A DNA stretch of 50,145 nucleotides from Amanita rubescens. Its lineage: Eukaryota > Basidiomycota > Agaricomycetes > Agaricales > Amanitaceae. The notes below the pieces were generated by a model. The model did no database searches and was not told the origin of the DNA. It was given only the letters and a program-made list of their open reading frames with translations. The translations under genes were made by a program, and so were the position numbers. Location: NCBI GenBank assembly GCA_015039365.1, contig WION01000382.1:1-50145 (forward strand). The letters run 5' to 3'. Shown piece after piece: positions 19,282 to 49,526 of the stretch. Positions within the stretch are counted from its first letter, which is position 1, and every line of letters begins with the position of its first letter.

Positions 19282-20670
19282 ATGCACGCTATTATCACTT
19301 GCAATGCTGCTACCTTCACCGACGCTGGTCGTCAACCTTTCACCGAAATCCAAAACCTCCCTAATTATTCCTCTAAATTCATCTTCATCGAAGTGTCTGA
19401 CGACATTTTAGGTTGCTTGGACAACGTTCAAGTCAACTCGGCGATGAACTCGCCGGTCGCCCAGTCGCCAGTGCTCATCTCAACTCTTAGGCGTGTCAAG
19501 ACAATCAATAGACTTGAAGGTCTGGCGATGCTTGAACGCAGAAAAATGCACCTCGCCCGGGAAGAATTCACTGTCGCTGTTCCGCTTGCTGGTCTGGCTC
19601 CTGTCTCAAATCTCAAGCGCGTTAAGACCATCAATAAACTTGAAGGTTTGGCGATTCTTGAACGTAGACGTGCCTTACTTGCGGAGAACACGCCGGTTGC
19701 CCAGTTGCCAGTGCCAGTGCCCACTATTAAACGCGTCAAGACTATCAATAGACTTGAAGGCTTGGCTATGCTTGAACGCAGAAAGGCTCACCTCGCCGGG
19801 GAGGAATTTACTGTTGCTCTTCCTCTTGCTGGTCTGGCTCCTGTTTCTACTCTCAAGCGCGTTAAGACCATCAATAAACTTGAAGGCTTGGCGATTCTTG
19901 AACGTAGACGTGCCTTACTTGCGGAGAACACGCCGGTTGCCCAGTTGCCAGTGCCAGTGCCCGTGCCCACTATTAAACGCGTCAAGACTATCAATAGGCT
20001 TGAAGGCTTGGCTATGCTTGAACGCAGAAAGGCTCACCTCGCCCAGGGGGAATTTACCGTTGCTCTTCCTCTTGCTGGTCTGGGTCTTGTTTCTACTCTT
20101 GAGCGCGTTAGGACCATCAATAAACTTGAAGGCTTGGCCATCCTTGAGCGCAGACGTGAAGATGACTCTTTGGCCGCTGGCGAGGCTTCCTCTCTTAAGC
20201 GCGTTAGGACCATCAATAAACTTGAAGGCTTGGCAATCCTTGAACGCAGACGCGCTGGATCTGAAAATGACTCTTTGGCCGTTGGCGAAGTTTCTTCTCT
20301 TAAGCGCGTTAGGACTATCAACAGGCTAGAAGGTCTTTCCAAACTTGAACGCAGAAAAGGCCGATTCGTCCAAGAAGATTTTACTATCACTTTCCCTTTG
20401 GCTGGTCTCGCTCAAGCTCCTGCCCTCAAGCGCGTCCGAACGATCAACAAATCTGCTGGTCTTGCTATTCTCGGTCAACGCTCTGCCAAGGAAGACTCTA
20501 ATGATGATTCAATTGTACTCGCCGAATCTGGTTGTTCTCTCAAGCGCGTGAGGACGATCAACAAGCGCGCTGGACAAAACATCCTTGAACGCAGGAAAGC
20601 TCGTGTCTTTGATCAGTCGGCTGTTCAGGCTTATCTCGCTGCGGCGGCAGCGGGAGAAGCCAGCTCTTAA
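19282..20670 (+). CDS. Intronless tandem-repeat protein, KRVxTINxLEGLAxLERR repeats
   Basis: I do not recognise a family. The ATG at 19282 follows a TATA box; the frame is open further upstream but has no earlier ATG. The product is 462 residues. Residues 1-60 (MHAIITCNAATFTDAGRQPF onward) are non-repetitive and not hydrophobic, so no classical signal peptide is visible. Then come ten copies of an 18-residue block (consensus KRVRTINKLEGLAILERR) separated by variable spacers. Spacers alternate between a hydrophobic type (FTVALPLAGLAPVST) and a Pro/Val type (NTPVAQLPVPVPT). The last two repeats are degenerate, and the protein ends AYLAAAAAGEASS. Each block is bounded by dibasic KR and RR sites, the motif cleaved by kexin proteases in secreted precursors. 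Whether this protein enters the secretory pathway is unclear. It could instead be an intracellular helical-repeat protein. Confidence 0.75.
   Translation: MHAIITCNAATFTDAGRQPFTEIQNLPNYSSKFIFIEVSDDILGCLDNVQVNSAMNSPVAQSPVLISTLRRVKTINRLEGLAMLERRKMHLAREEFTVAVPLAGLAPVSNLKRVKTINKLEGLAILERRRALLAENTPVAQLPVPVPTIKRVKTINRLEGLAMLERRKAHLAGEEFTVALPLAGLAPVSTLKRVKTINKLEGLAILERRRALLAENTPVAQLPVPVPVPTIKRVKTINRLEGLAMLERRKAHLAQGEFTVALPLAGLGLVSTLERVRTINKLEGLAILERRREDDSLAAGEASSLKRVRTINKLEGLAILERRRAGSENDSLAVGEVSSLKRVRTINRLEGLSKLERRKGRFVQEDFTITFPLAGLAQAPALKRVRTINKSAGLAILGQRSAKEDSNDDSIVLAESGCSLKRVRTINKRAGQNILERRKARVFDQSAVQAYLAAAAAGEASS
19487..20610 (+). repeat. Ten-copy coding tandem repeat with two-unit periodicity
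   Basis: The DNA repeats in pairs. The 240-nt segments beginning at about 19487, 19727 and 19973 each hold an AMLERRK-type unit followed by an AILERRR-type unit and are nearly identical at nucleotide level. The last four units are single and more divergent. This indicates growth by unequal exchange of two-unit blocks. Confidence 0.8.
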
Positions 20671-31879: not shown

Positions 31880-32065
31880 TTGGTGCCCTCGGGGTCCGTT
31901 CTGCAGGTTATCGGTTATCTCTCGCGCTCATCTACACGCCTTACACGCCTTTTGGCTACAAAACACCGTTATTCACCTCGGGGTCCGTTCTGCAGGTTAT
32001 CTCTCGCGCTCATCTACACGCCATACACGCCTTTTGGCTACAAACCATCATTATTCACCGATCTC
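31880..32065 (+). repeat. Two-copy direct repeat between DnaJ and GTPase genes
   Basis: A segment of about 85 nt beginning GGGGTCCGTTCTGCAGGTTA and containing CTCGCGCTCATCTACACGCC occurs at about 31890 and again at about 31979. Module B has one copy in the matching place (41130-41215, minus) and module C a decayed one (about 45217-45270). Confidence 0.75.
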
Positions 32066-32148: not shown

Positions 32149-35100
32149 ATGTCCGAGGCGAATAGCAGTGCGTTCTATGCACGTCGGTACACATAGTAAC
32201 GATGATTAATTTTAAGTCACAGATCTTATTGATATGCTCAAGGAGCGATACAACTGCCCTTATTTTCGCATTCTTGTCATTGGGAGGGCAAATGCAGGCA
32301 AGACTACTATTCTTGAGAAAGTTTGTGGTGTAGCAATGGGCACAAAACCCATTGTCTACCATCAGGATGATAGTGACCTTGAAAGTAATACATCTTTTGC
32401 ACATCAAGCACTTTTTGCTTAAATATAATGTTAGAACCTTTGGACATCCATCTGGCTCCAACAATTGAGGTGAGTCGACTCATTTGGTAGCTAGCCCCTC
32501 CATTGAGACATAATCAATATCCAGAGAGGCATACATGATATTGAAGACCAAATTACATACCCTGGAAGCAATTTCATCTTCCATGACTCGCAGGGGTTTG
32601 AGGCTGGTAATAATAGGGAACTTGAAGATGTCTGGAAATTCATTGAGAGGAGATCTGCTTCAACTACAACAAGGCAGCAGTTGCATATGATTTGGTATTT
32701 TGTACTCTATTTTTATGGGGCTGGCAAGCTTAACTGTCATAGGTACTGCATACCTATGGAAGGATCTCGCCCTATTCAATCTGAAGAACTCAAATTCTTC
32801 ACTAAAGGAATTGGGGAAGGTACTATGCAAACCACCAGGCATAAAATTGGATTACTGACCAGAAGAGGCCCACAGTTCCTTTGGTGGCAATATTCACCAA
32901 ATTTGATGCACAAATTATCAAGGAATATGTGCAATTAAATGACATGGAAGATGATGGAGATAAGTGGTACAAGGCCAAGGAGAATGCTGAAGACACTTTT
33001 CAGAGAGTATATCTCCCCAAGGTCATGAAAACTGGATATCCTCCTAAGACATATGTGCACTTGGAAGGTGAGATTAACAACATTTGATCGTTTAAAGGGA
33101 GAGATAATCATGGTTGGAAGATATGGATATGCCAGAGACAGACTGTCATGAACTGACTGCAATATCAGCTGCTGCAATTGATGACCCCAGTCTTAACAGG
33201 CTGTTTGTATCAACACAAATGAACAATCTTGATCTTTGTGTCAAGTCAGCTGTTAAGTGAGGATCTTATTGTAGGACCAGTTTTAAAGTTTCATGGCTTC
33301 CAGATTTTCCTTGGGTGCAAGTGGTTTGGACTATGTTGTTCATCTTGCATTCAATAGCTTTCCTCATTATTGGGTGAGTTTTGAATACTTTGATATGGAC
33401 AACAACTTACCAATGAGTCAAAGTTCCAAAGAACAGTAAGTATGTATGATCAATGGATAGCAGCACTAAAACTTATTCTCTAGAATGTGAGTATGCTGAT
33501 ACATTATTCCATGATTTTGCTAAATGCTAAAATTAATAGGATGTATGTGATTTGCACATATCTACCATTGAATGCTACTACAAATCTCTAAGCATGTTTT
33601 GATGAAAGTGAGTGTCACTATAGTTGCACCTGCAATAAGTCTGATTCAATTGGTAACAGTGGGTAGGCAAAATTAGACCATATTTTGCAATCACTTATGA
33701 TCATATGAGCAACAGGAAGTGAGTGACACCATCTTTCCCTGGAAGGCAAATTCATCTCATGGCCAACAGGATGTATGTTACATACATTGCACCTTTCTTT
33801 TCAGGTAATTAGCTTATTGTATCTATTCTCAAACAGAGAAAAGTGGGTGAAAACACATCTCTTTAGATCTGCATTTTGAATTTTATGACAAATAGGAAGT
33901 TGGTGACCATGCAATATCATTGGGCAAATTGTTTAATGATTTGGTCCATAAATACATAATAGCGTGTGAGTGACAGTGTATTCTATTCTCTTGGGTAATT
34001 GTGCCCTAACTGGTTGCCAACAGTCTGTGAGTGGAACTACATCTCAGTCTTCATACAGACAATGTCATACATAATATTCATTCCCATCCAACAGTCTGTG
34101 AGTAGCTCTCTCTACACTTCACCTCCAAGGCAGTCTATCATGTGATTCATATGTTATTTTATGACCAACAGAAGGTAAGTAACACAGAAGCTTATTTATA
34201 TGCAGAAAGTCACACCTTATTTCTTCTGGGATCAAAAGTTTGTAAGCAACATTGAACTTCTTTCTCAGAATTCCAACACATTTCTCACCATGACCAACAA
34301 GAGTGTGAGTACACCACAATTTGTTCTACTGATCAGCTTTTCATCTCATACCACAACCAACAGAAAGTGAGTGGATGCTGCACTCTTACCTATCAGAAAC
34401 TTTATCATGCATGACCAAAAGGGAGTAAGCAGCATTTAGTCATATGTATCAAGTGATGTCATAAAATCTTATCTTACAATGAACAGAGTGTAAGTGACTT
34501 TTTCTTCCAGGCATCTCATCAGATCTTATACCATATTTGGCAGGTTGTGAGTAACATTATGCCTTTATCTCTTTATCTTACTTGATTTCATGATAAGGAG
34601 AGTGTGAGTGAAAGCACAGCTTCAACAAGTCTGATCTCTTATCTTCTAATGATAAACAGAAAGTGAGCAATACTGCACTTTCATGTTGGTCTCATGAGTC
34701 ATGTTATCCTATCTCACAGAATGTTAGTAATGCTGCACTTGCTTATCAATGAACAACTCCATCTAATTTCACCTGATTGCTCACAGCCTGTGCATAACAT
34801 TTAATGTTTTCATCCCAAGTAGTCATCTTGATAATAACCAACAGAAAGTGAGTAACATTGTATGTACTGCAATTTTACATATCTCCATAACCAACAGGAT
34901 GCAAGTACATGTCACTTGATGTTTTGTCTCTAATCCAATGATGCCCATAACACCACACCCATGGACAACAGGAAGCAAGTAGCTCTGTACATTACTTGCT
35001 ATTGCCTCTTATCATATTTTGTGTTTACAGAATGTAAGTGTCATGAGACTATCATATGTCATGTGCTTGCACCATGTCTTATTATCAACAAACAGACTGT

Positions 35101-36268
35101 AAGTGAGGCACTGCAATAGCAAAAAAATCATCTGACCTCATCATATCTTCTAACCAACAGGCTGTGAGTGGCCCTGACATTTGTCTGAAAATCAGTTCTG
35201 ATCTTGTAACAACAGTTTGTATGTAATGTTGTATTTCTATCCATTTGTGGCCTGATTTGATGTCCTATTATGACCGACAGGATGTAAGTTGCATTGTATT
35301 TGGCATCCCACAAGCTATCCTAATTTATTTCATGGCTGATAGGATGTGAGTGTTGCCATCATTTATTTGCTATTCAATCTTACTAGATCAATTCCAACAG
35401 GTTGTGAGTGATATGGCAAATTTTCTGCTGATAGATCTGATAATAGGGTCAATAGGATGTGGGCTTGAATGCATCTTTGTTTTTGTACAGATTATTGATT
35501 CAATTATCAATAGAAGGTGAGTAAGATGATATTTCCACATGGAATTTATCTCATAATTAACAGAAAGTGGGTGTTGGTGCAGTCTCATCACCATCACCAT
35601 CTCATGGTCATAGATTGTGAGCAACATTGGATTTCTGAAATAGAATATTTCCATAAGGATATTACAGAATGTAGGGGAAAATATTGTCCTTTCTGGGGTC
35701 AATCTTTATGTTTCCTTCACAGATGGTGCAGCTCTATTTTAATTTTTCCATAGCTGTTCCCTCACCTTTCCTATGTCCTAGGTGAGCAGTGATGTACACA
35801 TCACATCATCAGAGACATTCTAACCTGCTTTAGGTTGTAGGTCATTCACTGAACTGAACTTGGAAATATTGCCTATCATGATTCACCTCCTCAGGGCCAA
35901 CTTTGTGATCTGTTTGACTTTGGAGAACAAGCAAAAGATTTCAGTGAGACAGTGAGACTATCAATACATATCTTGCTGTTTAAAAGTTCTCACCCTTGAA
36001 CCAGCCCACATGCTATCAAATTATAGCAGGTAGTAAGATGCACTGTTCTGTATTTTCCCTCAATTAAGAATTCACAGCAAGTGTCATCATTGCCAAGAAA
36101 TCATTTTGGATAAAAAAGCCACTTATTGAATCAATCCCAGAAGCTTTTAATCACTTCAAGAAAGCTGGAAGTGTTGATAAACTGAAGGCTAGAATCAAAT
36201 CAGAATATCTTCCACATGATCATCAAGATTTAATTGAATTTTTATATGATATAATTAAGGATTTCTGA
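32149..36268 (+). CDS. G-domain GTPase with microexon array (copy A, apparently intact)
   Basis: Agaricomycete G-domain GTPase (AIG1/Era-like P-loop fold). Exons: 32149-32167 (MSEANS), 32223-32384, 32435-32469, 32525-32694, 32743-32819, 32876-33067, 33121-33256, 33304-33373. G1 is GRANAGKT (32281-32304). G3 is FHDSQGFEAG. G4 is VAIFTKFDA. Later come YLPKV, YPPKTYVHLEG and LNRLFVSTQMNNLDLCVKSA; the 33304 exon ends NSFPHYW. The microexon array (33484-35725) follows, then exons at 35754-35781 (LFPHLSYVL), about 35834-35836, 35895-35951 (GQLCDLFDFGEQAKDF), 36005-36029 and 36078-36268 (SVIIAKKSFWIKKPLIESIP to IIKDF, stop 36266-36268). Upstream and array phases agree if the array begins directly after FPHYW. 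Between 35781 and 35895 my exon model is out of register by a base or two, so one junction there is wrong or the frame ends early. Cellular role unknown. Confidence 0.7.
33484..35725 (+). other. Microexon array A: 38 exons, 35 of them exactly 3 nt
   Basis: Each unit is an acceptor (mostly CAACAG), a tiny exon, and a donor (GTGAGT, GTAAGT, GTATGT or similar), spaced about 60 nt. Exon starts: 33484, 33540, 33593 (15 nt), 33660, 33716, 33770, 33837 (6 nt), 33896, 33963, 34024, 34095, 34172, 34239, 34302, 34364, 34422, 34487, 34544, 34598 (6 nt), 34660, 34720, 34787, 34845, 34898, 34972, 35031, 35096, 35161, 35216, 35281, 35343, 35401, 35456, 35514, 35564, 35614, 35668, 35723. All lengths are multiples of three. 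Joined in phase 0 they give 44 codons with no stop, rich in Lys, Asp, Glu, Ser and Asn; the other two frames hit stops. Donors after 34898 and 34972 are GC type (GCAAGT). That these are used exons is inference from splice signals and cross-copy conservation. Confidence 0.75.
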
Positions 36269-37050: not shown

Positions 37051-40000
37051 TCAGAAATCCTTGATTTGATCATATAAAAATGTAATCAAATATTGAGGAT
37101 CAGATGGAAGACATTTGGCATTAATTCTAGTCTTCAGTTTTTCAACATTTCCATCTTTCTTGAAGTGGTCCAAAGCTTCTTGAATTGATTCAACAATTGG
37201 CTTCTTCATCCAAAAGGATTTCTTGGCAATGATGATGGATGCTGACACTTGTTAATTGATGAAGAAATAAGACAGAACATATTACCTGCTAAAATTTGAC
37301 AACCTATGGGCTGGTTAGACAAGTGAGAACTTTTAAGACAGAAGAATACATATGGATGTCCTTACAGTCTTGTGAAATTTCACTGTTTGTTCTCCAAACA
37401 ACTTGCAAAGTTGGTCCTAAGGAGGTCAATAGGTAAGATTCCCAAGTTCAGCTCAGCAAATAACTTACAACCTAACCAGCAGATTAAAACCTTTCTTGAT
37501 ATCACTTGTACATCATTGCTTACCTATGAGATCAGACAGGTAAGTGAATAGCTGTGAAAAAATTGAAATGGTATTGCACAATCTGTGCATGAAATTAGTA
37601 GCAGAACAACAAAATATTTTCCCTCACTTTCTGTGAAATATTTATAGAAATACTGCATTTCAGAAGTCAAGACTTGCTCACAATCTGTGGCCATGAGATG
37701 GGAATGATGAGATTGCACAAGCACTAACTTCCTGTCAATTGTGAGATGACAACCTAGTGGAAAAATGCGGTGTTACTCACATTCTTTTGATCATGAGATA
37801 ATTGACATTGAAGACAAGAATGCAATGCTGCTCACATCCTGTTGATTATAATGGCAGATCATTCAGCAGGAAGGTGCAGTATCACTCACAAGCTGTAATC
37901 ATGATTGATATAATGAGACTATATATACAGGGGCATTGACACTCACAGACTGTTGGTCATGAGATAAATTAAAACAACTTGAGAGACCAAATGCAGTACA
38001 ACCCACCACCTGTATATCATGATGGAACATCTGATAAAACTGGGTTATGAATAGGAATATGTGATATCACATACAAACTATTGGTTATGATGTTGAAACT
38101 AATTTTCAGATGAAATTTCAAGGCCACTCACAGGCTGGATTTTTAAGATGGAATCATTATGGGGTTTCTAATGCAGTATTTCACTCACCATCTATTTGTT
38201 AGCAATGAGACAGAATCACAGATGGTAGTCAGACCATGAAACTTACAGGCTGTTAGCCATGGAATGAGATGAGGTTGCAATACATATATGGAATAATATT
38301 GTAGTATCACTTACTTCCTGTTGGCCAAGGATGGTGAGCATGGATGACAGATGAAATTTCAATGATGCTTACAACCTGTAAGTTGTCCAAATAAGAAAGT
38401 GCAGGGTAGAAAAAGTGTGTGTATAGCATACTAACTTCCTGTTGGTTATGAGATGAAATGGCCACTTGACACAAAAGCTCAATGTCACCCACAATCTGTT
38501 AGTCATTGAATGGGATGAGTTTATCTACAGATAGGTGAAGTGCAGTATTACATACATCCTGTGCCTGGGGTAGAATGGTATAAGATCAATATATGTACAA
38601 ATGCAAGGTTACTACTCACTTTCTGTTCATAGTGGGCGATAGGGATCAAACATGCAGGTAAATTGCAGTCTTGCTCACCATGCCCTCCTTACAACGGGGT
38701 GAACTTGATAAGATTTGTCAGGAGATAATGTGAACTGTTACTCACAATCTGTCAAACATGGGGTGAGACTTCCTGGAAGAAAAATGTCCAATTTAACTTA
38801 CACTCTGTTGTAGGATGAGTTTAGATGATTGACAAAGTACAAGTATGGCCTTCCTACTCACATTCTTTTGATCATACATGATGTTTATTGCATAATAGGA
38901 AAATGCAAAGTGCCACCCACTTTCTGTTGGTCATGGTGTGAGATGGAAAGACTGTCTGACATATATGGTACTGTGATCCCTCACATTCTGTTATTCTTGG
39001 TGAGAATTCTAATGGAACTCTAATACTAAAGTTCAGTGCCACTCACATACTACTTGTCACAAAATAAGATATGAATTCCTGGATATGAACAAATCTTGTT
39101 GCTTACACCACGCTAGCCATGGAATGAGTAGCCTTGGAGGTTGTAGTGAATGGCCACTCACATCCTATTGGATAATAATATGTAGTAAGTACATAGAAGA
39201 GGAAATGTCGATCTACTCACTTCCTGTTGACCATTAATCAGTAATAAATCATGATAGAGACTGTTAGATGATGTTGCAGGACCACTCACACCCTGTTTTA
39301 ACAGAATAAAAATGTTGATAGAGAGAGGTGTAGTGCCACCTACATCTCGCTGTTTAAGGATAGATGCAATCACAAACTACAATCTGGAAAGAAAAGTAAC
39401 TTACATCCTTTGGCCATGCATTAGTTTGCTCTCTGGACAGAACTGTTGCCACTCACTTCCTGTTCCCCATCCCATAAAACTTGCAAAATGTGCACTGGTT
39501 TTGCTTACCCACTGCAATTATATGGATCAGATTTGCTTGCAGGTACATATGAGCATTGGAGTCAGTGACACTCACTCTCATCAAAACATGCTTATTTGGG
39601 ATGATTCCCACATAACCCATTACTAGTGATAAATGCTAGATATTTGGAGAATTACACACATCCTACTCATTCAGACATTCAGCAAGGCATTCATCATGAG
39701 AGGGTGATGTCTCAAACACTCACTCTCTGCAAGAAACTTTTGAGATATCCAGTATGATAAAGCATCCCCCTATACTTACTGTTCTTTTGAACTTTGAATG
39801 ACTCAGCCAAAGCTGCTATCTATATCAACATATTCACAAACTCACCCAATAATGTGGGAAGCTACGTGTTACAGTCATTATAGCCTGTTTCATGCTAATC
39901 CCATCATCAATTTGGAGGCCCAGTCTGGATACTATCAAGGTTTGAAATTGATCATGAAGTATGATGCTTACTGAAGTGCTGACTTGACACAAAGATTGAG

Positions 40001-41070
40001 ATTGTTCATTTGTGTTGATACAAACAGCCTGTTAAGACTAGGGTTATCAATGGCAGCAGCAGATATTTCAGTAAGTTCATGACAGTGTGTCTCTGGCATA
40101 TCCATATCTTCCAATCATTATTACCTCTGCATTTGTAAATGATGCAATGTTGTCATTCTCACCTTCCAAGTGCACATATGTCTTAGGAGGATATCCAGAT
40201 TTCATGACCTTGGGGAGATATACTCTCTGAAAAGTGTCTTCAGCATTCTCCTTGGCCTTGTACCACTTATCTCCATCATCTTCCATGTCATTTAATTGCA
40301 CATATTCCTTGATAATTTGTGCATCAAATTGGTGAATATTGCCACCAAAGGAACTGTGGGCCTCTTCTGGTCAGTAGTCTAATTTTATGCCTGGTGGTTT
40401 GCATAGTACCTTCCCCAATTCCTTTAGTGAAGAATTTGAGCTCTTCAGATTGAATAGGGCGAGACCCTTCCATGGGTATGCAGTACCTATGACAATTAAG
40501 CTTGCCAGCCCCATAAAAATAAAGTACAAAATACCAAATCATATGCAACTGCTGCCTTGTTGTAGTTGAAGCAGATCTCCTCTCAATGAATTTCCAGACA
40601 TCTTCAAGTTCCTTATTATCACCAGCCTCAAATCCCTGTGAATCATGGAAGATGAAATTGCTTCCAGGGTATGTAATCTGGTCTTCAATATCATGTATGC
40701 CTCTCTGGACATTTGTTATGTGAGGTAATAGCTACCAAATGAGTTGACTCACCTCAATTGTTGGAGCCAAATGGATGTCCAAAGGTTCTAACATTATATT
40801 TAAGCAAAAATGCTTGATGTGCAAAAGAAGTATTACGTTTAAGGTCACTATCATCCTGATGGTAGACAATGGGATTTGTGCCCATTGCTACACCACAAAC
40901 TTTCTCAAGAATAGTAGTCTTGCCTGCATTGGCCCTCCCAATGACAAGAATGCGAAAATAAGGGCAGTTGTATCGCTCCTTGAGCATATCAATAAGGTCT
41001 GTGACTTAAAATTAATCATCGTTACTATGTGTACACGTGCGCAGAACGTACTGCTGTTTGCCTCAGACAT
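37051..41070 (-). pseudogene. G-domain GTPase with microexon array (copy B, frameshift in G4)
   Basis: Inverted copy of the copy A gene. Start ATG at 41070 (MSEANS), first intron 41052-40999 (GTACGT donor), then NLIDMLKERYNCPYFRILVI and the intact P-loop GRANAGKT. The DSQG exon and MEGSRPIQSEELKFFTKGIG are present. At about 40330-40336 one base is missing relative to copies A and C, so VAIFTKFDA becomes VAIFTNLM and the frame is lost in G4. Past this point exons again match (YLPKVMKSGYPPKTYVHLEG, LNRLFVSTQMNNLDLCV, NSFPHYW), and the microexon array keeps its splice signals and open phase. The 28-nt exon is 37525-37552. The C-terminal exon (SIIIAKKSFWMKKPIVESIQ to QIKDF) ends at 37051. A sequencing error at the G4 base would make this an intact gene. 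Confidence 0.6.
37580..39726 (-). other. Microexon array B: 37 exons, 33 of them exactly 3 nt
   Basis: Same structure as array A on the minus strand. Lower coordinates of the exons in transcript order: 39724, 39660, 39576 (15 nt), 39509, 39457, 39405, 39344 (6), 39290, 39221, 39162, 39107 (6), 39047, 38985, 38921, 38862, 38802, 38746, 38679 (9), 38620, 38556, 38493, 38436, 38373, 38315, 38247, 38189, 38132, 38075, 38007, 37947, 37890, 37836, 37781, 37729, 37682, 37628, 37580. The 45 codons contain no stop in phase 0. Between the 6-nt exon at 39344 and the 9-nt exon at 38679 there are ten units, against eleven in A and C. After the 9-nt exon there are nineteen in all three copies. Confidence 0.7.
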
Positions 41071-45100: not shown

Positions 45101-45454
45101 TACCTACTACCTACCTGATGTTCATTGTAAATTAGAGCCCACGTTTAATGAATCCTGTTCGGCGATAATGCCGAGGCGGAATCGGTGTTCTTGGGTCCAT
45201 CGGATGTGCTAGTTCTTCGGGGTCCATACGCAGGTTATCTCCCGCGCTCATTCTCTTCAGCCTTACAAGCCTTACTCGCCGCACAGTGTGCAACTAACCA
45301 TCATCTCCCTCGACACACCACCTGCAGAGTTACTATTTCTTTGGCTAAGAGTGTCTAGTATCCTACAAGGATTGAGCATGTATGAGGCAAAGAATGGTGT
45401 GTTTATCATCCTATTCATCCAAATTAACAGTGATGATTGATCTCAATGGGTTAA

Positions 45455-48400
45455 AGACCTGCTCAATATACTCAAAGAGCGATATAAATGCTCTCATTTT
45501 CGCATTCTTGTCATTGGAGGGCTAATGCAGGCAAGACTACTATTCTTGAGAAAGTTTGTGGTGTAGCAAAGGGCACAAAACCCATGGTCTATAGTTGGTA
45601 TGATCATGACCTCAAAAGTAATAATTCTTTTGCACATCAGGCATCTTTACTTAAAATATAATCTCAGGACCTTCCAATATCCATCTGGCTCCAACAATTG
45701 AAGTGAGCCAAGTTGTAACTTGTTTGGAAGCTAGTCCTCCATTGATGTATAATAAATATCCAGAGAGGCATACATAATATTGAAGCCCAGATTTCATACC
45801 AAGGAAGCAACTTCATCTTCCATGATTCACAGGGGTTTGAGGCTGGTGACAAGAAGGAACTTGAAGATGTCTGGGCATTCATTGAAAAGAGGAGGACTGA
45901 TTCAACCAGAACAAGGGAGCAGTTGCACATGATTTGGTATCTTGGGCTCTGTTTTTATGGAGATGGAAAACTTAACTACTCTAGGTATTGCATACCCATG
46001 GGGGGATCTCGCCCTATTCAATCTGAAGAACTCAAGTTCTTTACTAAAGGAACTGGGGAAGGTATGCAAACCACCAGGTGCAAAACTAGACTACCAATCA
46101 GATGAGGCCCACAGTTCCCCTGGTGGCTGTATTCACCAAATTTGATGCCGAAATTATTAAGGAATATGTGAAATTAAATGACATGGAAGATGATGAGGAT
46201 AAGTGGTGCAAGGCCAAGGAGAATGCTGAAGACACTTTTCAGAGGGTATATCTCCCCAAGGTCATGAATACTGAATATCCTCCTAGGACATATGTGCAGT
46301 TAGAAGGTGGGAGTCACAATGTTGCATCATTTAAAAGCAGAGATAATCATACATAGCCAAAGATATGGATTTGCCAGAGACAGACTGTACTGAACTGACT
46401 GAAAAATCAGCTTCTACAATTGATGATCCAATTCTTAACAGGCTGTTTGTATCAACACAAATGAACAATCTTGATCTTTGTGTCACAACAGCATTTCAGT
46501 AAGGATGATACCTCATGATCAGTTTCAAACCTTGATATTTCCAGGCATGTCCTTAATAGAGATGGAATCAATATGCGTGATGCTCTATGGCTTGTAACCA
46601 ACAGCTTCCCACATTATTGGGTGAGTTTGGTAAATATGATGATATAGATAGGAGCTGAGGCATTCAAAGCACAAAAGAGTAAGTACTATAAGCTAGTACA
46701 TGATGGCACTGGATAAATCAAAATCATCCTCCAGAACTTAGTCACAGTGAGTCTAAGCTCTGTTGAGACCTCCTTGCATAATGAATGTCTTACTGAATGT
46801 CTAAAGGAGCAAGATGTGGTGATTATGCAATTTTTTTGCATTTACATAACATCATTGAGTCATGTGGCAATTGCCCAAATAGCATATTTTGATGAGAGTG
46901 AGTGTCACTGATGGTACCAGCAAGCAAATCTGATTTGCATGATTGCAGTGGGTAAGCAAAGCCAGTGCACATTTTGCAAGCCTTTATCATGGCATGAACA
47001 ACAGCAAGTGAGTGACACAAGCTCTTTCTGGAAGGTAGACTCACATATGGCTGATTGAAAGGGTGTAAGTTACTTTTCTTTCCAGGTTGTTAGCTTATGA
47101 TTGCATTTATCCTCAAACAGCGAGGAGTAGGTGGCACGATACCTCTCTCTATCAATATTATATGACAAACAGGATGTGAGTGGTCCTGAAATGGCATTCA
47201 ACAGTTACTTTCATGATCTATGTATTGCATCAAATCCTGTGAACAGCCTGTGAGTGCCATGGACTCTATTCTTTCATGGACTCCTACTCTCATACACTAA
47301 TCAATCATCAACAGCATGTGAGTAGATCCACATTTCCTTTTCCATGCAATTTCATAACTCTTATCATTGTTCAATAGTATGTGAGTGACTCTTCACTCCA
47401 ATGTCCAAGGCTATTCACTAGATCCAATCCCATGGATAACAGCCTGTAAGCAATATGCAACACAGATATTTATTTATATGCAGGGACTCACACATTCATC
47501 TCATTTTGTGACAAGTAGTATGTGAGTGGCACTGAACTCTGTTAGAGGTCCATTATATTTCTCACTTGGACTAACAGACTGTGAGGACATCACAATATCT
47601 AATTGCAAAACAGTATTTCCATCTTATACCATGACCAACAGTCAGTGAGTGGCACTTTGCAGTTTCCTATCAGGCAATATTCATCATGTGTGATCAAAGG
47701 ATGTAAGCAGTATTGTACTATACTTGATCAAATGGTCTCATCCAAACTCATCCTACAATAGAGTGTAAGTCACCTTTTTCTTCCCAGAAGCCTCTCTTAC
47801 TACCCCAGATTTAACAGGTTGTGAGTAACAGTTCACATTTATCTCCAGACAGGTCTTATCTTTGTCACAAGGAGGGCCCGGGAATTGTGGTGAGCAAGAC
47901 CACAATTTATCTGCATCTTTGATCTCTATTTATCTTCAATGATGGGCAGGAGGTGAGTAACCCTGCACTTGTAAATTGGTCTTACATATGTCATTTCAGG
48001 GGCAAATTGTATGTAATACCACACTTTACCTATCTATAGAGAAACCTGTCACATTCCATAACTAACAGATTGTGGGTGACATTGGGATTTTGTTTCAATT
48101 ACTGGCCATCTCATCTCTTAACCAACAGGAAGTGAGTGAGCCACACATTTTCTGCCCTGCACTTCCCCAATAACTTACAGAGTGCAAGTATCATTGAATT
48201 TCTATTTGTGATGCATGCTTATTGCCAATAGGAAGTAAGTGACACTACATTATCTTTCCATATATTGTGATCTTACCTGAACTCACAACAAACAGACTGT
48301 AAGTGTCATTGTCTGACCATCATCTGTCATGCTGTTTCAGCCTGTCTTATTGCTAACAAATAGATGGTGAGTGAGATACTGCACTAGAAACCCTATGACC

Positions 48401-49526
48401 TCACTTCATCATACATATTCTCAAAAATCCAGCATGTGAGTTGCCCTGAAACTTCCTTAGAAAGTTTTCATCTCATGGCCAACAGATTGTATGTGACATT
48501 ATCCATCACCCAGCTTTATCAGATGTTCTGTCATGATGAGCAGCTGGTGGGTTGTACTGCATTTGTTACCTTCTAGGCCATTTTAGTTTATCTTATGACC
48601 AACAGCAAGTGAGTCTTACTGCCCTTTATATACAGTTATTAGACCAATTTTAATTCATGAATGACAGATTGTGAGTGATATTGCATGTCTGCTCAATGAT
48701 CTGCCATCATGATCAACAGGAAGTCAGCAGTTTTTCATTTTTGTCTTCCATGTTAAGTATCACATGATCAACAGGAAGTGAGTGAAACCACATTTTCCCA
48801 CCAGGCTATCATCTCATAATTAACAGAAAGTGAGTGCAATCATCAATGTGTCTCATTATTCTCATCTCGTGGTCATACATAGATTGTGAGCAAGTTTTAA
48901 TTTCTGATATGCAATATTTTTTATGGAAACCTGACAGAAAGTGAGGGAGGAATTTTTGTTTTTCCACTACTGATATATTTCATACACAGATTGTGAAGTA
49001 CCATTTCAATTTTTCCACAGCTATTCCCTTACTTGCCTGACCCCATAGGTAAGTGATGATGTACAAGTGATATCAACAAAGATTCTAACCTTCTGGTTAG
49101 ATTGTATGCCATTTGCTGAATTGAGTGTGGGGATCTTGCCAATTCACACCTTTAGGACCAACTTTGCAATTTGTTTGGAGAACAATCAAGGGAATTTCAC
49201 AAGACTGTAAGACCATCCACATGTGTTCTTCTGTCATAAAGATCTCAATTTCCTAACCAGCCCAAGTTTTGTCAAATCTTAGCAGGTAATATGTTCTGTC
49301 TTATTTCTTCCTTAATTAACAAGTCACAGCATGTGTCATTATTGCCAAGAAATCCTTTGGGATAAAGAAGCCACTTGATGAATCAGTTTCAGAAGCTTTG
49401 GATCAATTAAAGAAAGATGGAAGTGTTGAAAAACTGAAGACTAGAATCAATTATGAATCTCTTCCATCTGAGCCTGATATTCAGTGTTTCATTACATTTC
49501 TATCTGATCAAATTAAGGATCTCTGA
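45455..49526 (+). pseudogene. G-domain GTPase with microexon array (copy C, P-loop frameshift, no start)
   Basis: Third copy of the GTPase gene. The MSEANS start exon is not found. Homology begins near 45455 (LNILKERYKCSHFRILVIG). Within the P-loop (about 45515-45530) one base is missing relative to A and B, so GRANAGKT reads GGLMQAR and the frame closes. Later exons are recognisable: the DSQGFEAGDKKELEDVW region, YCIPMGGSRPIQSEELKFFT, VAVFTKFDAEIIKEYVKLND, YLPKVMNTEYPPRTYVQLEG, LNRLFVSTQMNNLDLCV, and an exon reading HVLNRDGINMRDALWLVTNS and FPHYW (ends 46620). The array (46883-48992), the 28-nt exon 49021-49048 (LFPYLPDPI), a DQLCNLFGEQSREFHKT exon and the C-terminal exon (VIIAKKSFGIKKPLDESVSE to DQIKDL, stop 49524-49526) follow. 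The nucleotide-binding site is lost, yet the array is still in phase. Confidence 0.7.
46883..48992 (+). other. Microexon array C: 36 exons, 32 of them exactly 3 nt
   Basis: Exon starts: 46883 (15 nt), 46949, 47005, 47062, 47121 (6), 47173, 47247, 47315, 47378, 47443, 47519, 47578, 47642, 47700, 47762, 47818, 47872 (18), 47950, 48000 (9), 48069, 48129, 48181, 48232, 48296, 48364, 48433, 48486, 48544, 48606, 48668, 48720, 48775, 48827, 48883, 48938, 48990. All lengths are multiples of three, and the 48 codons contain no stop in phase 0. The two short exons that precede the 15-nt exon in A and B are not clearly preserved here (46740-46815). One donor is GC type (after 48181) and one is GTCAGC (after 48720). 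Confidence 0.7.

Follow-up and report, generated by a model that had tools for sequence, protein, structure and literature searches.

Can the middle of a protein be put together almost one residue at a time by splicing? The question is raised by a stretch of 50,145 nucleotides from the basidiomycete Amanita rubescens (assembly GCA_015039365.1, contig WION01000382.1, positions 1 to 50,145 of the forward strand; hereafter the window). The window holds three paralogous GTPase genes, each of which contains 37-40 tiny exon-like units, mostly 3 nucleotides (nt) long and spaced about 60 nt apart. For gene 1 the answer is probably yes: its 38 units of one to five codons are predicted to be spliced codon by codon into one mRNA and to yield a loop of the GTPase, a reading to which a probability of roughly 0.85 is given. 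The parts of gene 1 are listed below.

32149-32167, 32223-32384, 32435-32469, 32525-32694, 32743-32819, 32876-33067 and 33121-33256, plus strand: seven conventional exons of the G domain, with an open joined translation.
33304-33373, plus strand: exon with the end FPHYW, in phase 0, directly before the array (from its translation and from NSFPHYW at the equivalent place of the intron-free open reading frame P0068).
33424-33435, plus strand: 12-nt exon FQRT, upstream of the array and corresponding to YRRT in P0068.
33484-35725, plus strand: array in which 35 of the 38 units are single codons (length-neutral parser, shuffles and phases), with the residues N D HVLMK W E D RK E R S S K F S K G S V ES K N P K D E N T A F D D V D K K I N M.
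35895-35951, plus strand: first conserved exon after the array, GQLCDLFDFGEQAKDFSET, in phase 0, equated by eye with ILPELFSVFGEHSTFFSAT of P0037.
36068-36268, plus strand: C-terminal exon ending in TGA, with an approximate 5' boundary (genome search with this exon).

The array was delimited with a parser whose splice matrices were trained on matches with 3-nt spacing but which gives acceptor and donor independent scores; exons of 1-18 nt, without length preference, and introns of 42-80 nt were accepted. This parser returned 37 consecutive units between 33484 and 35670, of which 33 measure 3 nt, two 6 nt (RK at 33837 and ES at 34598) and one 15 nt (HVLMK at 33593), while the remaining unit, called as 1 nt at 34304, reads AGT in frame with an AAG acceptor two bases upstream. 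Together with the ATG at 35723-35725, the array comprises 38 units, 132 nt and 44 codons, separated by introns of 47-74 nt; the count of an earlier note on this DNA, with its 35 single codons, is thus reproduced. That note's statement on the phases was also confirmed, as the joined units are free of stops in phase 0 and contain 2 and 14 stops in the other two phases. Twenty single-base shuffles, which preserve base composition only, never produced more than four units or more than one of 3 nt, and no chain of at least four units was found by an earlier parser in the reversed or complemented window; on the strength of the shuffles and the reversed controls, a chance origin of the array is rejected. 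An extra unit called before the array (TAA at 33437) was discarded, being read as the FQRT exon's donor. The earlier note had overlooked the FQRT exon itself, and the 28-nt exon that it placed next to the array (35754-35781) lacks support, because 28 nt would break the frame before the next conserved exon at 35895-35951, which starts in phase 0.

It is very likely that the array codons are used. Short public open reading frames (ORFs), located on contigs of 1.2-1.9 kb (JGI) and derived from sources other than the window genome, run uninterrupted across the G domain, which is split by introns in the A. rubescens genes, and extend into the array region or all the way through it; most simply, they would be spliced transcripts of related fungi. 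One of them, P0041, contains WFESADDAAGKEREYYDDGIHSGGYGYYGGKKISEKERDHRRDFVE, and the array at C1:31250-33974 (C numbers denote contigs of the assembly) encodes WFESADNAAAKERQYYDDGVH-x-AGYGYYGGEKISEKERDKRKDFVE in 46 units. When a single 4-nt unit is read by its first three bases, 38/46 residues are identical, compared with 4.3 on average and never more than 12 in 2000 shuffles of codon order and with 3-7 when the exons are shifted by 1-2 nt; moreover, each of the 46 parsed units has a counterpart in P0041 and none is skipped. The best match of the gene 1 protein, P0068 (82% identity over 72% of the query), reads FPHYW-YRRT-N-D-HVLMK-W where gene 1 has FPHYW-FQRT-N-D-HVLMK-W in separate exons (10/12 residues identical from FQRT to W). 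Further agreements were found by eye between P0036 and locus L051 (13/15 residues) and between P0002 and L016 (11/13). After its array match, P0002 continues with about 40 G/R/Q/L-rich residues and then IVRFHF, which is the read-through of L016 from 7944 and suggests that the source gene of P0002 has an intron after its array. The IVRFHF segment lies over the intron start and likely marks intron retention in a relative. The in-frame array peptides in these ORFs (38/46 in C1; N-D-HVLMK-W in gene 1) support the residue-by-residue assembly of the protein's middle part proposed in the earlier note and, judged from sequence comparison, all units of gene 1 would be included. A search limited to residues 268-377 of the L016 protein retrieved one protein, P0121, of little use. 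P0009, an annotated protein of Amanita brunnescens, ends in FPHFWVFIFAKLHISI, resembling the read-through after FPHxW in L024 and L027, so that the gene structure may be shared by this species and have been overlooked by annotation.

Fungal splicing is characterized by short introns and intron definition. Every intron of the array carries its own signals (a GTRAGT donor, a GACCAACAG-like end and a presumed branch point), and all are sufficiently short for intron definition, so that a 3-nt exon might need no exon recognition. The loop would be built residue by residue between the G domain and the C-terminal helices.

A single array had been implied by the earlier note, while the window contains two further ones, and strict counts suggest several hundred genome-wide. 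The features of genes 2 and 3 are as follows.

39662-37628, minus strand: gene 2 array (parser; out-of-frame calls upstream at 39783 and 39736 excluded), with the residues D HVLMR W E D RD G E D RG Y N K N S I EGM K D I E V E P M P F V S L D N E I K.
39840-41005, minus strand: gene 2 G-domain exons (tblastn of relatives).
37054-37248, minus strand: gene 2 C-terminal exon (search with the C-terminal exon).
46883-48992, plus strand: gene 3 array (parser; calls at 46678, 46735 and 46807 before it and at 49049 after it excluded), with the residues HILMR W Q G RG D P H Y P Y T S D S V EGPGIV E GQI I E S E T M H I L Q I E E K I K I.
45441-46640, plus strand: gene 3 G-domain exons (tblastn of relatives).
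49323-49523, plus strand: gene 3 C-terminal exon (search with the C-terminal exon and tblastn of relatives).

As called, 31/37 units in gene 2 and 32/40 in gene 3 are 3 nt long. By eye, the three arrays have the same landmarks in the same order (15-nt HVLMK/HVLMR/HILMR, W, E/Q, D/G and a 6-nt R-x), followed by later ones, namely a longer mid exon (ES/EGM/EGPGIV) and E/K-I-K/N near the end. This shared order of unit lengths and residues fits coding use.

Genome scans covered the assembly of 75.7 Mb in 786 contigs, in which the window is contig 313 (C313). The pattern YAG-NNN-GTGAGT, with 3-nt spacing, has 7850 matches versus 1218 for a reversed-pattern control; the corresponding numbers are 862 versus 1319 for 4-nt spacing and 1169 versus 1342 for 6-nt spacing. 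Among the spacings tried, the enrichment is limited to that of a single codon. The excess of about 6600 strict matches, divided by 15.4 per array (from 11 arrays), gives roughly 430 arrays in the assembly, and distinct array loci are fewer, because the assembly contains near-identical copies of some regions. The window locus itself is present in three near-identical copies (C154, C190 and C313), so that counts include alleles or duplicates. Of 217 genomic candidates for the C-terminal exon, 150 were scored and all 150 matched, and 18 of 20 loci around such matches contain a chain of at least six units; loci were mostly chosen through GTPase exons, not randomly.

From 54 parsed arrays (20 loci at C-terminal matches, 20 at the pre-array exon and a few more), 31 were retained after copies had been dropped (L002-L008, L033, L034, L046, L048, L049 and L050 were dropped or replaced by one merged stretch). 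In this set, 532/560 inner units are 3 nt long after a gap-filling step that is biased to 3-nt exons by 1.5-3 bits; before gap-filling and with alleles counted, the proportion is 548/575. Introns of up to 100 nt have a median length of 59 nt. Only one stop triplet is present versus 32.7 expected from base frequencies, and this one is taken as the TAA misparse at 33437. In 1/532 cases the triplet ends in C, versus 10/137 in the young arrays treated below, where xRA or xYT accounts for 108/137 triplets; the bias might mean that an additional YAG acceptor or GT donor is avoided.

Codons are better conserved than their surroundings in diverged paralogs, which were compared over the first ten units only (the L048 row representing the same locus as L017): codons are 93-100% identical versus 75-83% for intron cores, with a baseline of 53-57% for non-matching introns (e.g., 97%, 78% and 54% for L016/L024). 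For the more distant L040 the ranges are 78-81% versus 60-63%, and the closest copies, with codons and introns both 96-100% identical, are uninformative. Constraint on whole introns is unlikely, given that introns within old arrays (window, C1 and C46) have a mean similarity of 0.52-0.59 versus 0.53-0.57 for non-matching ones. A recursive-splicing ratchet, which would involve zero-length exons, was likewise set aside: 137/143 young slots and 532/560 units overall are 3 nt long, and four were called with zero length.

The young arrays combine nearly identical introns with variable codons. They are a non-random sample, C82, C599 and C604 having been chosen as conspicuous and C13, C228 and C769 having been reached via the pattern or a C-terminal match. 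In C82, C599, C604, C13 and C228 (the count excludes the near-copy C769 and the later C254 and C228b), 143 units have introns that depart from a single 62-nt sequence by three edits at most; 119 of the 143 introns are identical to it, and there are 30 edits in 8869 nt (0.34%). The slots between the introns measure 3 nt in 137 cases, 4 nt in three and 2 nt in three, with no stop among the 137. As many as 97/143 differ from the commonest triplet of their own array, versus 1.5 expected at the intron rate. The exact junction pattern of this intron, ACCAACAG N(0-8) GTGAGTGACATTGCACAT, has 809 copies in the genome (control 0).

The sister arrays C228a, C769 and C254 can be aligned across 36 units without gain or loss. 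Relative to C228a, C254 differs at the consecutive slots 4 to 7 (4/36; 5 intron edits in 2232 nt; adjacency chance 0.0006) and C769 at the adjacent slots 33 and 34 (2/36; 2 intron edits in 2232 nt; adjacency chance 0.056). Because the changed slots are neighbours, they probably represent block replacement by gene conversion from another array; the CGA CTA CTA of C254 is found in the same order in C13. C228b is less uniform with respect to C228a (26 units paired, 10 unpaired, 19 slots differing and 21 intron edits in 1612 nt). Shuffling of whole units was rejected as the sole source of diversity, because neutral slots and introns should then attain equal diversity: it moves codons and leaves uniform introns with diverse codons unexplained. 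The codon variety may thus stem from diversifying selection or from slot-directed mutation; 2- and 4-nt slots speak for mutation, the absence of stops and the non-random triplets for selection. The window arrays are old arrays with diverged introns. In ageing arrays the introns diverge (those of the window, C1 and C46 are at baseline similarity) and the peptide can settle; the C1 array peptide shares 83% of its residues with that of another source.

A unit consists of an intron and a codon, so that 3-nt units could be gained, lost, exchanged or skipped without a change of frame. Duplication of units could generate arrays, codon cassettes would likely be swapped between arrays via identical introns (by gene conversion or unequal crossing-over), and the codon variety might be retained by selection or produced by mutation directed to the slot. 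In its full form, this scheme makes the head-to-tail 62-nt introns of many GTPase genes homology arms by which single codons are shuffled, gained and lost in frame between arrays, and which splicing then removes; it is put forward tentatively, with the odds somewhat against it. If it holds, the loop would evolve in steps of entire codons, far more quickly than point mutation allows, and would generate recognition diversity. The best fold matches of the family are immunity-related GTPases (IRG; Irga6, Irgb10 and GM4951), to which it may be related. A role of the loop in the recognition of a partner or of nonself is a guess that draws on the hypervariability of the young arrays, the family size and the fold.

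The splice sites of gene 1 could also be decoys or relics, the stretch from 33373 to 35895 being removed as one long intron or recursively, with no array codon in the protein. Gene predictors agree with this: P0071 and P0001, two annotated proteins of A. rubescens, are without an array peptide; the in-frame array peptides of the intron-free ORFs (38/46 and 10/12), the depletion of stop triplets (1/532) and a unit length kept at 3 nt make it highly improbable. A stronger competitor is alternative splicing, in which each transcript takes a subset of units and one gene gives rise to many protein variants, as reported for Tuber melanosporum (PMC9815663, PMC4986451, PMC10197012, PMC3689799). Skipping would be frame-neutral for 3-nt units and could offer a way around 2- or 4-nt slots, and the residues of P0068 after W differ from those of gene 1, whereas P0041 matches all 46 parsed C1 units with no skip; such subset splicing is a real possibility, rated a little below even. 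The preferred reading, splicing of all units codon by codon into one mRNA, also has to face several observations that weigh against it or against its extension to the family. Two of the 20 loci are without an array, and the array of L022 is short and mixed. In the closest paralogs, L039/L042, codons (97%) are not better kept than introns (98%). The 2- or 4-nt slots in C13, C254, C599 and C1 might put these copies out of frame at full inclusion, and the C1 copy, with one 4-nt unit, has damaged-looking C-terminal exons and may be a decaying gene. P0068 diverges from gene 1 after W (DSDVNYFTFPVVSL), a departure that may be due to another array or to skipped units. The source genes of the ORFs, being from other sources, may not be split alike, although the read-through in P0002 counts otherwise. 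In a screen for slot changes in units with both 45-nt flanks at least 41/45 identical, near-identical copies of old arrays have none (window versus L010 0/33 and versus L014 0/34; L024/L025 0/47), as do most other allele-like pairs, and strong slot divergence, in pairs with at least five screened units, occurs only where C82, C599 or C604 is involved. L017/L023 differ at 2/32 slots. Skipping of one 2- or 4-nt slot would restore the frame, and gene inactivation is therefore not a necessary outcome of such slots.

Two other explanations concern the young arrays. Their diversification could be directed to the slots, e.g., by untemplated nucleotides at the joins of intron copies, and not result from mutation plus selection. 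It would account for the excess of differing slots (97/143 versus 1.5), for 2- and 4-nt slots amid otherwise perfect introns and for a whole triplet that differs between sister arrays (CGA/ATC), but the adjoining changes in sister arrays point to exchange from other arrays, and the triplets, far from random and free of stops (0/137), point to selection; directed diversification is accordingly considered unlikely. The young arrays might also be non-coding tandem minisatellites of dead gene copies, for which the frame-shifting slots of C13, C254 and C599 and the existence of C-terminal fragments without G domain or array (L018 and L019) could be adduced. All slots of C82, C604, C228a and C769, however, are 3 nt long and without a stop, and an in-frame G/R/Q/L-rich segment of that type is present in the ORF P0002; an origin as minisatellites is thus judged very unlikely.

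The NACHT-ANK (nank) genes of Tuber melanosporum reportedly contain codon-sized microexons, which Iotti et al. (2012, Fungal Biol 116:261) are said to have described. In the passages available from later papers, these genes have tens or dozens of codon-sized exons, and alternative splicing diversifies the protein (PMC9815663, PMC4986451, PMC10197012, PMC3689799). The earlier note knew of no described gene with so many single-codon exons, a claim that has to be corrected in view of this precedent, as those passages portray it. The A. rubescens arrays resemble it in the many 3-bp exons, in the expanded fungal family and in the affected C-terminal part of the protein, whereas the genes are basidiomycete GTPases here and ascomycete NACHT-ankyrin genes there; identical introns are not mentioned in the Tuber passages. 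Tens of consecutive 3-bp exons are likewise found here at the level of sequence signals (33/37 units in gene 1 and 532/560 in the 31 arrays). A Pfam scan of five relatives with E up to 1 found neither NACHT nor ankyrin domains; it returned GTPase models below threshold and weak, unrelated matches.

Introner-like elements insert into many unrelated genes, often with target-site duplication. As with the introners and introner-like elements of fungi and other eukaryotes (PMC4457414, PMC9860276), one intron sequence is multiplied genome-wide here (809 junction copies); a difference is that the sampled array copies lie head to tail, one codon apart. The hypervariable repeat arrays of fungal NLRs, for which Podospora HNWD is cited (PMC9815663), share high internal similarity, repeat exchange and reshuffling and diversity at few positions, as far as the passage goes; the homogenised part is coding there and intron here, where the cargo is a single codon. 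The literature search found no such arrays for Amanita and met single-codon exon arrays only via papers citing the Tuber work, subscription literature lying mostly outside the search. Judged by the Tuber passages, the kind of array is known, and what differs is the gene family, the lineage, likely the scale, and the state of identical introns with variable codons.

The arrays would bring both the fungal lineages and the gene families with single-codon exon arrays to two, probably with hundreds of arrays in the A. rubescens genome, and would provide a natural splicing case with some 40 introns around 3-nt exons per transcript. The young arrays make testable a use of introns as recombination arms for codon shuffling and a fungal receptor-like diversity. 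Surveys with a minimum exon length miss the array-encoded part of the protein, and the annotated proteins examined omit the arrays.

L018 (C321:131100-139900) and L019 (C557:151600-160400) are C-terminal GTPase fragments located downstream of long helicase-like ORFs, with no array. By eye and from their motifs, these ORFs look Pif1/Helitron-like, and such elements may have captured pieces of the GTPase family. Just upstream of gene 1, a direct repeat starting with CGGGGTCCGTTCTGCAGGTT is present at 31890 and 31979, and positions 19446-20355 of the window contain tandem repeats, the periods being 240 and 105 bases.

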